Below, piece after piece: positions 38,054-43,743 of a DNA stretch of 52,774 nt. Location of the stretch: NCBI GenBank assembly GCA_903904855.1, contig CAIVEH010000098.1, forward strand, positions 1 through 52,774, in the 5' to 3' direction. Position numbers and translations under genes: made by a program. Each line of letters opens with the position of its first letter. Within the stretch, counting starts at the first letter, position 1. The stretch comes from an uncultured Bacteroidota bacterium (GTDB lineage Bacteria > Bacteroidota > Bacteroidia > Chitinophagales > Chitinophagaceae). The notes under the pieces were generated by a model. That model saw only the letters and a list, made by a program, of their open reading frames with translations. It was not told the DNA's origin and made no database searches.

Positions 38054-41000
38054 ATGACCGACAACGACGAACAATTTCTTGATAGATACAATAAACTGAA
38101 TGAGCGCCAGAAAGAGGCGGTTGATCACATTTACGGGCCAGTAATGGTAATTGCAGGGCCGGGTACCGGCAAGACCGAAGTACTATCTATGCGTATAGCC
38201 AGCCTGTTGCGCAGCGAAGCCCAGGTGCAGCCCCATGAGATACTCTGCCTTACCTATACCGATGAGGCTACCAGCTCCATGCGCCGCCGACTGGTGCAGA
38301 TTATAGGCCCTGCAGCGCATAAAGTAAACATCTATACTTTTCATGCCTTCTGTAATAATGTAATACAGAACAACAGTGAAACCTTCTCCATGCGCTCCCT
38401 GCAGCCGATAACCGACCTGGAGCGTACCGAGTTGCTTTATAAATTACTGGAAAATCTGCATTCAGGGCATCCGCTGCGCAAACTGAGTGGTAATATCTAT
38501 TTCGATGCCGGAAAGATCAGCCGACTGTTCGACCTGATGAAGCGGGAATACCTATCCTCTCAGTATATTTCTGATGGCATTGATGGTTATCTGAAAGAAT
38601 TGCCGGAAAGAGAAGATTTCAAATATAAAAAATCGGGTAAAGGCTACCAGAAAGGAGACATAAAACAAAACCTGGTGGATGAAGAAACAAAGAAAATGGA
38701 AAGTACCAGGTCAGCTGCATTGCTTTTTGACAGGTATGAGGAGCTAATGAAGGAATCGGGGAGATATGACTTTAATGATATGATCATATGGGTGCTGGCA
38801 GCTTTCAAAGAAAATCCTGCATTGCTACAGAGCTACCAGGAGCGCTACCAGTTTATACTGGTTGATGAGTTTCAGGATACCAATGGCTCCCAAAATGAAC
38901 TGCTTAATCTGCTGGCATCCTATTGGGAGGACCCCAACATTTTTGTGGTGGGCGACGACGACCAGGGTGTATATGAATTTCAGGGTGCAAGAATCCGCAA
39001 CATTGTTGACTATTATGAACGATACAAAGAATCAATTTCTATAATTGTACTCCCGCACAATTACCGTTCATCGCAGATGATATTGGATAAGGCTATGGCT
39101 ACTATCCATAATAACCAGCAAAGGCTCATCAACCAGTTGCACGAGCTTAACCTGGATAAACAGATCATAGCATCTGCTGACCGGTTTAGAGATGGCGCCG
39201 ACACTGTACAGCCAATAGTGAAGATATACAATAATGTGCCGCAGGAAGAGTGTGATATTGTATTGCAGATTCAGGGCCTTCAGCAGGCAGGTGTACCACT
39301 CAAGAATGTAGCTGTATTGTATGCCCAGCATAAGCAGGCAGCCAATATTATGAGCATTATGGAGAAACAGGGTATACCCTATAATGCAAAGAAGCCGGTA
39401 AACATTCTAAAAGAACCACTCATAGAGCAGATACTGAATGTGCTGCAATACCTCAATGATGAAAAGAAGAAATCGTTTGAGGGTGAAGAGGCATTGTTTG
39501 AATTGATGCATGCACCCTGCTTCGGCATATCACCAACTGATATTGCCCAACTGGCCCTTTACCTGCAGCATACCCGAAAAGAAAAAGGCCCTACCCGCTG
39601 GCGACTGATACTTAATGATGTATTATTGCTGGAAACACTCGGGCTAAGCTCAGCTAAAGCTATGGCAAGGCTGGGCTATTGCCTCGACAACTGGGAGACA
39701 CAACAATTATCCCTGCCGCTGCCATTGCTGCTTGAAAAAATAATGCATGAAAGCGGCATGGTAGCTTACCTGGTGCGCACTACTGATCATGTATGGAATA
39801 TACAGGCGCTGTTTACATTCTTCGAGTTTGTGAAAGATACATGGGCGCGTAATCAGAAAATAAAACCAGCCGGCCTACTGGATATGATTAAGCGAATGAA
39901 TGATGAAAACATTTCATTGCCTTTGCAACGAGTAATACAGAATGAAAACGGCGTTCATTTCTACACTGGGCACAGCTCCAAGGGCAATGAGTTTGAGTAT
40001 GTTTTCCTGATAGGCTGCACCAAGAATTTTTGGGAAGATAAGCGGGGTGGTAATAATGAGTACCGGCTGCCTGATACCATCACTGCCACAGTAGATGACT
40101 CCCAGAAAACAAATAAAATAGAAGTGGCCCGCCGCCTTTTTTATGTAGCCCTTACACGTGCCAAAAAACATCTTCATGTATCATTTGCCATAAGTGATAC
40201 CGGAGGTAAGCCTCTGGACGCTTCGGTTTTTGTGGATGAGATTTACCCCCAGGTTGAAAGAATTAATCAGGAAGTATCGTCTGCTGAGCTGGTGCAGTTT
40301 ATGGAAATTGCTATACAGCCAGTACCTGAAATATGGATCAAGACTGCCAATGGCCGGTGGATAGACCAGGAGCTGAAGCAGTTTATTGTCAGCGCTACTT
40401 CGCTCTCCAAATTCCTGCATTGCCCGCTGACTTTCTATTTTGAAAACATCCTTAAAGTACCCTTCCAGAAGAATGACGCACTTGCATTTGGAAGTGCGGT
40501 GCATACTGCCCTTGAGCGGATGTTTCTGGATATGAAAGCCAATAAAGGTACTTTCCCAACTAAAGAACAGGTGTTGGTTATTTTTAAAAATGCACTTTTC
40601 TCAGAGGCTTCCAGTTTTACCCCGGTACAATTTGAACGCAGAATGGAGCAGGGGAATACATTGCTTTCGGAATATTATGATCACTACATCAACACATTCC
40701 ATAAGGATGTGGAGATAGAATTCAAGGTGCCACGCTACTTGCTGGATGGAGTGCCGGTAACCGGCAAGATAGATAAGATAGAACAGCATGGCGACACCTG
40801 CACTGTGGTGGATTACAAAACCGGAGACCCCGATAAATCGGCGAATGCCAATGTGGCTCCTCCCAATGACAAAGAACCACTGGGCGGCGACTACTGGCGT
40901 CAGATGGTATTCTATAAATTACTCCTAGAGAACCTTGAAGAACGGCCGCGAAGAGTAACCATTGGCATGTTCGACTACATACAACCCAGCAAAACCGGTG

Positions 41001-41203
41001 AATATAAACAAATGGTAGTGCCCGTATTTGCACAGGACGAAACAACGGTGCGCAACCAGATAAAAGATGTTTACAGCCGCATCATGAACCACGAATTCGA
41101 CCGGGGATGCGGCGAAGAAAAATGCCACTGGTGCAACTTTGCAAAGCGATATGAGTTGATAAGGCCGGGTAAGGAGGAAGTAGTGGAGATGGATGATTTG
41201 TGA
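38054..41203 (+). CDS. UvrD-like helicase with C-terminal PD-(D/E)XK nuclease
   Basis: A 1049-residue superfamily 1A helicase: Walker A AGPGTGKT (residues 34-41), GDDDQGVYEFQGA, motif II VDEFQDTN (~270), the LPHNYRSS motif and VARRLFYVALTRAKK near residue 700. The C-terminal ~250 residues are an AddB/RecB-type nuclease: SLSKFLHCPLTFY (~780-795), FGSAVHTALE, VVDYKTGD (catalytic D and K, ~919) and GCGEEKCHWCNF (~1018-1028). The Cys spacing suggests an iron-sulfur cluster like AddB. It should unwind and cut DNA, in repair or against foreign DNA. It lies 52 bases ahead of the RuvB-like/Mrr fusion on the same strand, but composition changes sharply between them. Confidence 0.9.
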   Translation: MTDNDEQFLDRYNKLNERQKEAVDHIYGPVMVIAGPGTGKTEVLSMRIASLLRSEAQVQPHEILCLTYTDEATSSMRRRLVQIIGPAAHKVNIYTFHAFCNNVIQNNSETFSMRSLQPITDLERTELLYKLLENLHSGHPLRKLSGNIYFDAGKISRLFDLMKREYLSSQYISDGIDGYLKELPEREDFKYKKSGKGYQKGDIKQNLVDEETKKMESTRSAALLFDRYEELMKESGRYDFNDMIIWVLAAFKENPALLQSYQERYQFILVDEFQDTNGSQNELLNLLASYWEDPNIFVVGDDDQGVYEFQGARIRNIVDYYERYKESISIIVLPHNYRSSQMILDKAMATIHNNQQRLINQLHELNLDKQIIASADRFRDGADTVQPIVKIYNNVPQEECDIVLQIQGLQQAGVPLKNVAVLYAQHKQAANIMSIMEKQGIPYNAKKPVNILKEPLIEQILNVLQYLNDEKKKSFEGEEALFELMHAPCFGISPTDIAQLALYLQHTRKEKGPTRWRLILNDVLLLETLGLSSAKAMARLGYCLDNWETQQLSLPLPLLLEKIMHESGMVAYLVRTTDHVWNIQALFTFFEFVKDTWARNQKIKPAGLLDMIKRMNDENISLPLQRVIQNENGVHFYTGHSSKGNEFEYVFLIGCTKNFWEDKRGGNNEYRLPDTITATVDDSQKTNKIEVARRLFYVALTRAKKHLHVSFAISDTGGKPLDASVFVDEIYPQVERINQEVSSAELVQFMEIAIQPVPEIWIKTANGRWIDQELKQFIVSATSLSKFLHCPLTFYFENILKVPFQKNDALAFGSAVHTALERMFLDMKANKGTFPTKEQVLVIFKNALFSEASSFTPVQFERRMEQGNTLLSEYYDHYINTFHKDVEIEFKVPRYLLDGVPVTGKIDKIEQHGDTCTVVDYKTGDPDKSANANVAPPNDKEPLGGDYWRQMVFYKLLLENLEERPRRVTIGMFDYIQPSKTGEYKQMVVPVFAQDETTVRNQIKDVYSRIMNHEFDRGCGEEKCHWCNFAKRYELIRPGKEEVVEMDDL

Positions 41204-41255
41204 AGGGAGATTTGATTTCAAAAATAAAAAGAAAATTAGACTGTATATTTAATCT

Positions 41256-42344
41256 ATGGAAAACGAATCTTCATCAGCTATAACCTTTCTTGAATATATC
41301 GGACAAAAACAAATAATTTTTGATATAGAAGAAAGAATTAGAACTTCAAAAACAACCGGAGTATCATTAGAACATATTCTACTGTGTGGACCACTTGATA
41401 TGGGGAAAAGAACCTTAGCAGCCGCAATTGGAAATGAATTGGGTATAAACTGGCTATTTGTGCATGCTAATGAAATTGAGAAGCCGGCCGATTTAGCTGG
41501 AATATTAACCTGTGGCAAAATAATTGTTCTTGATGAATTTAAAGGTTTGAAAAAAAACCTACAAGAATATTTGTATCAAGCAATGACAAATTCAAAAATT
41601 GACATTTTGATTGATTCAGGTCCCCCATCTAGATATATCCAAATTGAAATAGCTACATTTACTTTAATAATCCTGGCAACAAAACCATGGGATGTAATTG
41701 AAAAATTTAGAAGGTGGTTTTTAGTATATGATTTTACTTCTTATTCTTTAGAAAACTTAAGAGACATTATTTTAAATATAGCTGTAAAAGAAGGCATTAA
41801 AATTGAATTAAAAACTGCTGAATTATTGGCAAATTATTGTAATGGCAAACCAGGTAATGCAGAAGTAATTATTAAACGAATAGTCAAGGCTAGTAAATAT
41901 TCGACTACTGTAATTAATGATGAGAATATTCTTGAAATAATAAATTATTTAGGGTATGGCAAAACCTATCCAAAATCATTAACATTAGCTGACAAATTCA
42001 GTAAAATGTCAGGAATAGAATTTGAAAGATGGGTAGCCGACCATTTTCGTGGGCAAGGATTTGATGTTAGAGAAACAGAAACGATTGGCGACCATGGCAT
42101 AGATTTGTTACTTTATAAGTCAAATAATCTAATTGCAGTGGTTCAATGTAAATGCTGGGATGGAGTTGTTGGTGAGCCCACAATAAGAGAATTTTTCGGC
42201 TCTTTAATAAGTAGTAAGGCCCCATTAGGTTACATGATCATTACTTCTTCATTTAGTCAACACGCTATAAATTTTTCAAACGACAAACCAATTAAGCTTA
42301 TTGATCTTGAAGCATTAATTAATCTAGAAATTAATTACCAATGA
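41256..42344 (+). CDS. RuvB-like AAA+ domain fused to Mrr-like nuclease
   Basis: A 362-residue protein not matching a named family as a whole. Residues ~10-235 align with the RuvB ATPase core: FLEYIGQ, SLEHILLCGPLDMGKRTLA (45-53 is Walker A), EKPADLAGILT, VLDEF (Walker B, 91-95), FTLIILATKP and GKPGNAEVIIKR. Key motifs are altered: GPPGLGKTT becomes GPLDMGKRT, DEIH becomes DEFK, ATTR becomes ATKP, LRxRFG becomes FRRWF, and GTPR becomes GKPG, so ATP hydrolysis may be impaired. The RuvB winged helix is missing. Residues ~248-340 are an Mrr-type PD-(D/E)XK nuclease: GIEFERWV, GDHGID (D279/D283), VVQCK (Q297-K299). AT-rich compared with neighbours. Confidence 0.85.
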   Translation: MENESSSAITFLEYIGQKQIIFDIEERIRTSKTTGVSLEHILLCGPLDMGKRTLAAAIGNELGINWLFVHANEIEKPADLAGILTCGKIIVLDEFKGLKKNLQEYLYQAMTNSKIDILIDSGPPSRYIQIEIATFTLIILATKPWDVIEKFRRWFLVYDFTSYSLENLRDIILNIAVKEGIKIELKTAELLANYCNGKPGNAEVIIKRIVKASKYSTTVINDENILEIINYLGYGKTYPKSLTLADKFSKMSGIEFERWVADHFRGQGFDVRETETIGDHGIDLLLYKSNNLIAVVQCKCWDGVVGEPTIREFFGSLISSKAPLGYMIITSSFSQHAINFSNDKPIKLIDLEALINLEINYQ

Positions 42345-43345
42345 AATTATCGAATTGGGAATACACCAAAGACCTTGATGGAAAAGTCATTATCACCACT
42401 GTCGATAATAAATCTAAGCCTGAAAAGCTTATCAAATATTATTCATTAACCGACTATAATATAGATGCATTTAAAAGAAATTATCTCTTTTTTTCGCATC
42501 CCTTAGATTTAAATGATCCATTTGACTCTTGTCGTTATATGATAGATTTAAGATTCTTATCAAAGGGATATTTTATAACACTAATTAGTAGGTACATGCA
42601 TTTTTTTATGCCAAGCCGAAAATTGTCGATAGCAGAGATAATAAATTATGTGGAACATGGTTTTAATAATGAAACATCTAAGATGGATTTCTTCCAAACT
42701 CATAATCCCTTTTATTGGAACATTATTTTCAGTAAAGTAGCTGTGTTATCCTTATCTGAAATTGAGGACTCAATGTTACTTTGGTCATATTATACTAATC
42801 ATAAGGGATTTGCTGTGAAATTTATCAATTTAAATTTTGAAACAACCATTTCAGGTCCCTATCCTATGAACTATTCTAACAAATACGAAATCATATATCC
42901 TCGAAAAGTAGAAATTGAAATTGAAAAACTAATCTATCTTTTAACAATAAAATCTGAAGAATGGAAACATGAAAATGAATGGCGCTTTATACTAAGAAAA
43001 GATAATCTGGCTATACCCGAATATGATGAGTATGATATTAAAATTAGCAACAACAAAGTAACGTATGATCCAAAACAAATTGAGTATATTGTATTAGGAT
43101 TTAAATTTTTTAAAGGAAATATAACACCAATATACATAAGCGACAACTCTCGCATTTATACTTTCAACAACAAATCCCACTCCGATAAACTGAAGATTGA
43201 TCTTCTTAATTTAATAATTGAAAATAAAATTGTGGTTCGACAAATAGAAGCTAAAGAGGACAATAGTTTTACTCTTGTTTCATTTCCTATTAAAATTGAA
43301 ATGAAAGAAAAAAACAGAACTTATATTATTGAAACACAAAAATAA
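42341..43345 (+). CDS. DUF2971-domain protein coupled to the RuvB-like/Mrr gene
   Basis: A 334-residue protein whose first ~230 residues fit DUF2971: KYYSLTDYNIDAFKRNYLFFSHPLDLNDPFDS near residues 32-65, LSLSEIEDSMLLWSYYTNHKGFAVKF near 140-165, and KSEEWKHENEWRFI near 205-220. DUF2971 proteins have no established activity but occur in anti-phage and mobile-element loci. The ATG overlaps the upstream stop by 4 bases (ATGA), which strongly suggests the two genes act together. The C-terminal ~90 residues are extra, Asn/Lys-rich, with no domain recognised. Base composition is as AT-rich as that of its partner. Confidence 0.82.
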   Translation: MKLSNWEYTKDLDGKVIITTVDNKSKPEKLIKYYSLTDYNIDAFKRNYLFFSHPLDLNDPFDSCRYMIDLRFLSKGYFITLISRYMHFFMPSRKLSIAEIINYVEHGFNNETSKMDFFQTHNPFYWNIIFSKVAVLSLSEIEDSMLLWSYYTNHKGFAVKFINLNFETTISGPYPMNYSNKYEIIYPRKVEIEIEKLIYLLTIKSEEWKHENEWRFILRKDNLAIPEYDEYDIKISNNKVTYDPKQIEYIVLGFKFFKGNITPIYISDNSRIYTFNNKSHSDKLKIDLLNLIIENKIVVRQIEAKEDNSFTLVSFPIKIEMKEKNRTYIIETQK

Positions 43346-43401
43346 AATTACATATGACTGTGTCCTTTAGTAGCCAGTTTTCCTATATTAGGTAACGATC
43401 A

Positions 43402-43448
43402 GAAGATGCTGTTGAAAAAAGTAAATCTAAATTATTTTTAGCATCTTC
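43402..43448. repeat. Inverted repeat GAAGATGCT/AGCATCTTC
   Basis: A perfect 9-bp inverted repeat encloses a 29-base A/T-rich spacer with an extra AAAAA/TTTTT pairing. It lies after the DUF2971 stop and ahead of the broken antitoxin-like gene. It may be a terminator for the accessory operon or an operator for the next gene; neither is proven. Confidence 0.5.
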
Positions 43449-43469
43449 GTTAATACGTGAATTTCAAAT

Positions 43470-43477
43470 TAAATTTG
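43470..43477 (+). promoter_or_regulatory. -7 box TAAATTTG of the antitoxin-like gene
   Basis: An exact TAnnTTTG match 13 bases before ATG 43491, with a TTCG about 20 bases upstream as a weak -33. AAAAAGG ahead of the ATG is a reasonable ribosome site. Confidence 0.5.
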
Positions 43478-43490
43478 TAAAAAGGACTTT

Positions 43491-43730
43491 ATGACTACTA
43501 AAGCTACAGTTATAGAAAACGAAATTGCAAAGTAAGTCAAGCAGTTGAATACGAGGCAAAAGAAAACTGTATTAACTGTAGTAAAGACATTCGCAGAAGA
43601 AAAGAAAGACTGGTGGGATGAATTATCTGAAGAACAATTGGTTGCGATAAAAGAAGCGGAAGCAGAACTTGATGCAGGAAAGGGTATACCACATAATGAA
43701 GTTCTGAAAAAACTAAGCAAGTGGTTATAA
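43491..43730 (+). pseudogene. Antitoxin-like gene broken by in-frame TAA
   Basis: ATG 43491 opens a frame that reads MTTKATVIENEIAK and then meets TAA at 43533-43535. The same frame resumes without any shift as VKQLNTRQKKTVLTVVK and runs to a stop at 43728. A one-base change CAA to TAA would explain it. The 79-codon product resembles small RelB/ParD-like antitoxins, ending LSEEQ-x(6)-AEAELDAG-x-GIPHNEVLKKL. A promoter box and ribosome site are intact. An alternative is that the C-terminal 61 residues are translated from TTG 43545. No RelE/ParE toxin gene was found next to it. Confidence 0.65.
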
Positions 43731-43743
43731 AATTCACAACAAA

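Follow-up and report, generated by a model that had tools for sequence, protein, structure and literature searches.

We analyzed a 52,774-nucleotide stretch of DNA from an uncultured bacterium of the phylum Bacteroidota (contig CAIVEH010000098.1; "the window" below is this whole stretch) and focused on two overlapping genes on its forward strand. Gene A (positions 41256..42344, +) is an intact open reading frame (ORF) of 362 amino acids in which NCBIfam and Pfam models recognize a RuvB-like AAA+ domain fused to an Mrr-type nuclease. Gene B (42341..43345, +) encodes a protein of 334 amino acids that PDC-S31 models and conserved alignment columns mark as a divergent DUF2971/PADLOC PDC-S31 protein. 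Both frames are intact, and the stop of A and the start of B share the four bases ATGA at 42341-42344, an overlap that the first-pass annotation had reported and that suggests translational coupling. The foreign composition noted there was also confirmed: GC content is 31% in A and 28% in B, against 44-45% in three other genes of the window and 52% in the genome's own ruvB; GC3 is 21% in A and 25% in B. A decayed small ORF adjoins the A-B unit.

Pfam RuvB_N matches A at residues 11-145 above its cut-off (3.3e-28) and Mrr_cat matches residues 249-357 (6.8e-26; 91 bits against a cut-off of 21), which places the fusion claimed at first reading on a single ORF. The RuvB-like part comprises the large and small ATPase subdomains (residues 11-226; 41286..41933, +), as supported by RuvB_N, the NCBIfam RuvB match to residues 10-226, and the PDB: in a sequence search with A (E up to 0.01), all 18 distinct sequences matched were RuvB chains, all within A residues 9-236. 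Two RuvB equivalog models scored 133 and 128 bits (cut-offs 282 and 299, respectively), with matches ending by residue 226, and no RuvB C-terminal model was among the nine Pfam families reported for A at E values up to 10. Because the RuvB match ends at residue 226 and Mrr_cat follows, with no match to a RuvB C-terminal model, the Mrr domain occupies the position of the RuvB winged helix, whose loss had likewise been claimed. Besides the domains named, Pfam found no DNA-reading domain in A.

The nuclease domain (residues 249-357; 42000..42326, +), identified by Pfam, alignment and the structural model, retains the putative catalytic residues D283, Q297 and K299, all of which are common to the four other Mrr proteins aligned. 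The motif is intact and follows the pattern (D/E)..(D/E/Q)xK given in the relevant portion of PMC3874153; in that same portion, likeness of the nuclease domain does not settle modification preference. By domain content, A is a member of the Mrr_cat nucleases. In the predicted structure, the Mrr part is good (block pLDDT mostly near or above 90) and the AAA+ part poor, giving a mean pLDDT of 63, and Foldseek matches of the model to RuvB, at TM-scores near 0.2, add little beyond the sequence match.

According to the part of PMC9477746 that treats the ATP site of RuvB, the Thr of Walker A coordinates Mg, helix alpha4 carries a Glu-Asp pair that works in trans, and the nucleotide is contacted by an N-terminal Arg and the sensor-2 Arg. 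By alignment, every one of these differs in A: the Mg-coordinating Thr is replaced (T52R), as are both residues of the trans pair (E111T and D112N) and the sensor-2 Arg (R200G), and the N-terminal Arg-Pro is absent. The sites are otherwise stable, T52, E111 and R200 being invariant in 23/23 RuvB-type sequences and D112 present in 22. The Walker A motif as a whole reads GPLDMGKRT (residues 45-53; 41388..41414, +), compared with GPPGLGKTT in the aligned RuvBs, and the ATPase is degenerate, as had been claimed. An arginine beside Walker B that contacts DNA in RuvB, by the account in a section of PMC10272136, is a Gly in A (R97G). Still kept are the Walker A Lys and the Walker B DE. An arginine finger can be assigned only with uncertainty: R153 falls on it in two alignments, and R153 or its neighbor may be alignable or not. 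Since the Walker A lysine, the Walker B DE and R153 are among the kept positions, the ATPase of A may not be dead. A is not a RuvB, as it falls short in equivalog score, winged helix and ATP site, yet it may dock like one.

The decay of the AAA+ domain is uneven. RuvA domain III binds a hydrophobic surface of RuvB formed by helix alpha3 and the presensor-1 hairpin, as described in part of PMC9477746, and the RuvA-binding hairpin of Escherichia coli RuvB spans L135-L152, according to a passage of PMC2628435. The corresponding regions of A form its predicted docking surface. The helix alpha3 region, IEKPADLAGILT (residues 74-85; 41475..41510, +), was located by alignment and predicted secondary structure, with the helix itself, the one preceding the Glu-Asp-bearing helix, bounded at residues 77-84 in a low-confidence part of the model. 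The presensor-1 beta-hairpin, IDILIDSGPPSRYIQIEI (residues 115-132; 41598..41651, +), was bounded by the positions aligned to E. coli L135-L152 and verified on an E. coli RuvB sequence. Two alignments were used. The first contained A and 13 RuvBs of the same genome and family, remaining from 15 loci after one (L005) was dropped for a frame that began in unrelated sequence and another (L011) was left out; the second added nine RuvBs of other groups and one plasmid RuvB-like protein, with L119 dropped for having no frame under the filter.

Where all 13 family RuvBs agree, A has the same residue at 15/18 positions in the docking surface and at 40/129 elsewhere (one-sided Fisher 3e-5). An earlier version with boundaries set by eye gave 19/22 against 39/124, and among random segment pairs of the by-eye size, 3/100,000 matched the family consensus equally well. 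All these figures are descriptive, as the surface pattern was noticed in the alignment before testing, comes from one protein and involves linked neighboring sites. The surface of A is identical at 16-19/26 positions to the 13 same-family RuvBs and at 17-18 to three Bacteroidales RuvBs, falling to 9-13 for six RuvBs of other phyla; outside it, A is equally distant from all 22 RuvBs (48-59/194).

The genome's own RuvB showed no such bias when compared with the six sequences of other phyla (12-16/26 in the surface and 105-119/194 outside; 15 and 116 for E. coli). Against the three Bacteroidales RuvBs, it was identical at 20-21/26 and 134-140/194 positions; over all 220 positions, it is nearer to these three (154-161) than to the six (118-132), as fits a host within Bacteroidota. 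The plasmid RuvB-like protein is a mirror image of A, with ATP-site motifs intact and the surface diverged (5/26). A recent gene conversion of the surface from the genome's own ruvB was ruled out, because the codons differ: A and ruvB use one and the same codon at just 2/11 and 3/11 identical residues.

Conservation in A is not confined to the docking surface, and patches beyond it are kept too, 34/69 positions invariant in the 22 RuvBs being retained. At 15 residues diagnostic for the family RuvBs, A matches two, carries the commonest residue of the other RuvBs at three and neither at ten, and in the tree its branch is 6.3 substitutions per site long and weakly placed. "Bacteroidota-like" is therefore a description of the surface only. 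In our reading, the AAA+ half descends from a RuvB, and probably from one of Bacteroidota. As A is a single sequence, there is no relative to show selection on the surface pattern.

The host genome encodes a RuvA with domain III and a separate full-length RuvB. Together with the kept docking surface and the nuclease residues D283, Q297 and K299, this host RuvA led us to propose, tentatively and with somewhat less than even confidence, that A is a nuclease which RuvA guides to four-way junctions or reversed forks, that it is likely carried as mobile defense cargo, and that B serves as its partner or regulator. An ancestral RuvB would have lost the winged helix that grips DNA, along with part of its machinery for ATP hydrolysis, retained the surface that binds RuvA domain III, and received an Mrr nuclease domain in place of the winged helix. 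Host RuvA bound at a four-way junction or reversed fork would then recruit A, and A would cut there. Nucleotide binding, for which the Walker A lysine and Walker B are kept, might gate its assembly, and B, made from the same message, would act as the partner or regulator. Four-way junctions and reversed forks arise in replicating and recombining phage and plasmid DNA, and for this reason defense as mobile cargo seems the likeliest role.

The earlier suggestion that the RuvB-like part could direct a nuclease to Holliday junctions or forks gains specific but indirect support from the docking surface, and we infer docking on RuvA from these sequence patterns. The fuller reading, in which a degenerate RuvB has become an adaptor instead of a motor, its RuvA-docking face kept and its nuclease delivered by RuvA to Holliday junctions and reversed forks, we regard as possible and would put forward with reservation. 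Known restriction nucleases mostly find their targets by sequence, modification or DNA ends. Should the proposal be true, A would represent a kind of restriction that goes by DNA structure, with a host repair protein as its guide, instead of by sequence or modification, and a nuclease reading branched DNA by way of host RuvA would follow a different targeting logic, one linking the recombination machinery to defense. The docking surface is predicted residue by residue and can be tested directly, with controls in the RuvB of the genome itself and in the plasmid RuvB-like protein of opposite pattern.

The main rival to a RuvA-steered nuclease is that the AAA+ half merely provides an oligomerizing, nucleotide-gated scaffold for the Mrr nuclease, with RuvA uninvolved and the nuclease itself recognizing modified or foreign DNA. 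The kept Walker A lysine and Walker B DE and the arginine at or near the finger position fit such a scaffold, as do the frequent occurrence of Mrr domains with other N-terminal parts and the place of ATPase-nuclease pairs as a known theme in defense (DUF4297-HerA, in the part of PMC11291478 that bears on it). What a scaffold leaves unexplained is why the best preserved part should be the RuvA-binding surface, Bacteroidota-like as it is, when the Mg-coordinating Thr, the trans Glu-Asp and the sensor-2 Arg have changed. We judge this alternative unlikely, though a serious one.

The assignment of B to DUF2971, made at first reading, stood by one measure and not by another. The Pfam DUF2971 model (PF11185) scored B at 8.5 bits (E 6.8), under its cut-off of 22. 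Four PADLOC models of PDC-S31, a candidate phage-defense family, nevertheless recognize B (best 2.3e-31), and it keeps 14/14 invariant columns in an alignment of eight proteins that includes B itself. The two families meet in other proteins: nine DUF2971-type relatives match PDC-S31 models too, and all seven of those scanned with Pfam pass the DUF2971 cut-off with 28.5 bits or more. Judged by profile and conserved residues, and not by the Pfam cut-off, B belongs to PDC-S31/DUF2971. The predicted structure of B has a mean pLDDT of 31, too low to assign a fold, and a sequence search of the PDB gave no credible relative. That DUF2971 proteins might be ADP-ribosyltransferase-like is no more than an idea suggested by motif shape.

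A profile search found a DUF2971 protein in 15/137 family genomes, its own included. We inspected about 1.5 kb on each side (less at contig ends) of 15 other loci from the 14 other genomes, with one further DUF2971 place lying outside this set, and found an Mrr or RuvB-like ORF at 0/15. At one locus, the next gene after DUF2971 encodes a DUF4357 protein that weakly matches GIY-YIG. DUF2971 genes on three plasmid stretches lacked Mrr or RuvB-like neighbors, as did those in viral contigs. A Rahnella plasmid carries, about 4 kb ahead of a DUF2971 gene, a pair annotated as AAA ATPase and UvrD-helicase. In the viral contigs, DUF2971 genes were seen beside likely tail or lysis genes (named by eye), a vicinity that is a common site of accessory phage genes. 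B itself was not matched in the phage records at 1e-3, nor by its own patterns in the viral contigs. B is a member of a scattered accessory family, and its pairing with A is not recurrent.

Full-length A was found in its own genome only, among all sets searched, the genomes being of one phylum. At 1e-35, there was no other in 395 phylum, 248 order or 394 family genomes, and at 1e-33, A had no match in 34/34 other genomes of the genus; the genus set comprised 35 genomes including its own, of which 25 (24 of the other 34) were at least 90% complete and at most 5% contaminated. These draws from genus, family, order and phylum overlap. In a set of 294 family genomes, 14 others matched A at 1e-30, over residues 9-215 at most, as RuvB does. 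Nowhere in 185 plasmid or 36 phage records was 80% of A covered, and among the matches listed (30 and 20, respectively), the query end lay at residue 267 or before. Pattern scans, which require exact eight-residue matches and would miss distant relatives, gave two loci each in genome contigs and viral contigs, all four of them Mrr domains in other proteins.

The Mrr domain of A was matched in 37/247 genomes of the phylum sample, its own included. When 34 Mrr loci, made up of 30 of those places and the four contig loci, were compared with the RuvB model, only A's own ORF matched; at the other 33 loci, the Mrr ORF was re-found in 29 and not in four. Mrr domains joined to other N-terminal parts were common. 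In open-licence papers, a body of literature that leaves most subscription journals and bioRxiv preprints outside, we found no description of the fusion or of a RuvB-Mrr-defense combination, and DUF2971 came up in a single paper.

The first-pass annotation had presented A and B as a candidate two-gene system, one that a fusion confined to a single genome, or lacking conserved linkage to DUF2971, would speak against. Within the sets covered, both of these hold. The search for proteins with both RuvB_N and Mrr_cat gave none beyond one genome in the genomes of one phylum, plasmids, phages and viral contigs covered, and no linkage to DUF2971 was repeated at the 15 other family loci. Since the fusion was seen once and DUF2971 is not linked to Mrr or RuvB-like genes, the term two-gene system is unsupported. 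A conserved A-B defense system in the usual sense of a recurrent pair is not supported by these counts, with relatives possible beyond the sets searched.

The same counts favor the view that A and B form no working unit, A being an isolated or decaying fusion and B an independent DUF2971 accessory gene whose overlap with it is a matter of chance. The fusion was found once, none of the 15 other family DUF2971 loci has an Mrr or RuvB-like neighbor, DUF2971 genes stand without such neighbors on the three plasmid stretches and in viral contigs, and the unit has a decayed small ORF next to it. Decay and chance fit less well with two intact frames whose ATGA overlap suggests translational coupling, or with the intact motif of the nuclease and the full set of 14 invariant DUF2971 columns, and the selective keeping of one surface is unexpected in a freely decaying gene. 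We find this view doubtful; cooperation between A and B, if any, would be of the kind proposed above, with B as partner or regulator.

We studied the origin of the unit by comparing its surroundings with those in relatives. The upstream UvrD/PD-(D/E)XK helicase is present in 34/35 genus genomes, the one without a match being 59% complete. A-B as part of an operon with this helicase was rejected, as the helicase is core to the genus and differs in GC content. The helicase strongly matches PADLOC helicase models (RTasHel 2e-74, GajB), which we took as ordinary UvrD kinship and not as the mark of a defense gene; the defense-family scan covered A, B and the helicase, and the other neighbors look housekeeping-like by eye. 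The four downstream window genes were named by eye as pseudouridine synthase, YbeY, monooxygenase and RecJ. Neither A nor B nor any of these four genes turned up in protein searches of the 3.5-7 kb that follow the helicase in 20 relatives.

The nearest relative is G689, whose helicase is 93% identical. Its sequence matches the window up to 41213 and again from 43744, there on a different contig, so that the interval 41214..43743 (no strand assigned) is specific to A's own genome among the stretches compared. Its left edge falls right after the helicase stop and its right edge at a small ORF also present in G689. Gene order at the site, flanks included, differs from that in the compared relatives. 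Both flanks match the genus, and a misassembly at the two edges is possible. The window contains no tRNA, and comparison of two short stretches at the edges gave no direct repeat of 8, 9, 10 or 12 bases common to both. Neither the 20 promoter-like sites (14.1 expected) nor the count of 0 terminator-like sites amounts to evidence.

The AT-rich composition relative to the genome, the occurrence of A in 0/34 other genus genomes and the interval without a match in G689 all point to transfer, as the first-pass annotation had claimed, and we consider it probable that the A-B unit was acquired in this way. A host repair role for A, as a RuvC-like junction-cutting factor working with RuvA and having no part in defense, would suit a docking surface resembling the RuvB of the host family but is improbable for a gene that is AT-rich, unlike the genome's own ruvB, and unmatched in 34/34 other genus genomes (24 of good quality), features of cargo and not of housekeeping.

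Compared with known systems, A shares with RuvB the large and small ATPase subdomains, the presensor-1 hairpin, helix alpha3, the Walker A lysine and Walker B. It differs in having no winged helix, in the loss of the N-terminal Arg, the Mg-coordinating Thr, the trans Glu-Asp and the sensor-2 Arg, in scoring far under the equivalog cut-off and in ending in a nuclease. With the Mrr-type nucleases, found in type IV restriction and other Mrr_cat proteins, A has in common the Mrr_cat domain and its D..QxK motif, but its RuvB-like part sets it apart: 0/33 other fetched Mrr loci carry a RuvB-like ORF (Mrr ORF re-found in 29/33). B resembles the DUF2971/PADLOC PDC-S31 proteins in the 14/14 invariant columns of the eight-protein alignment and the four PDC-S31 models matched; unlike them, it falls under the Pfam cut-off, has extra N- and C-terminal residues and overlaps an Mrr nuclease gene, which 15/15 other family loci do not. 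In pairing a ring-type ATPase fold with a nuclease, A is similar to DUF4297-HerA and other ATPase-nuclease defense pairs. DUF4297-HerA consists of two proteins with an active HerA ATPase, whereas A is one fused protein with a decayed RuvB-type site. As defense complexes such as DUF4297-HerA exist (described in part in PMC11291478), the ATPase-nuclease kind is already known; a variant of it directed by RuvA would be new.

Upstream of the two genes, the UvrD/PD-(D/E)XK helicase (window 38054-41203) was found to be conserved in 34 of the 35 genus genomes. None of its downstream neighbors in the window was seen beside the helicase in any of the 20 relatives examined, and in two of these (L046 and L050) its direct 3' neighbors were genes matching the window at 25.7-31.3 kb. 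Downstream, a short ORF with an internal in-frame stop (window 43491-43727) separates gene B, the DUF2971 protein, from a putative pseudouridine synthase gene, named by eye; a family search with the stretch past the stop gave no convincing match.

DUF2971 genes were also present in three viral contigs, at L107 1-735, L108 642-1493 and L109 1029-1880, the latter two carrying one and the same gene. By eye, the adjoining genes resemble tail or lysis genes, which are common neighbors of accessory phage genes. Another locus, from a genome of the family (L130 559-2187), has a DUF4357 gene immediately downstream of its DUF2971 gene; the DUF4357 product showed a weak GIY-YIG match, so that this is possibly another pairing of DUF2971 with a nuclease.

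Plasmid NZ_CP143488.1 encodes a RuvB-like protein of 328 aa, the length of RuvB (L027 2255-3241), next to a putative UvrD-type helicase gene, judged by eye. In alignment with RuvBs, its ATP-site motifs are intact. At the docking surface (helix alpha3 and presensor-1 hairpin, contacting RuvA domain III in RuvB), it is identical to gene A, the RuvB-like/Mrr fusion, at 5 of 26 positions and to the separate RuvB of the same genome as gene A at 7 of 26. With its ATP site retained and its docking surface diverged, the plasmid protein is the mirror image of gene A.
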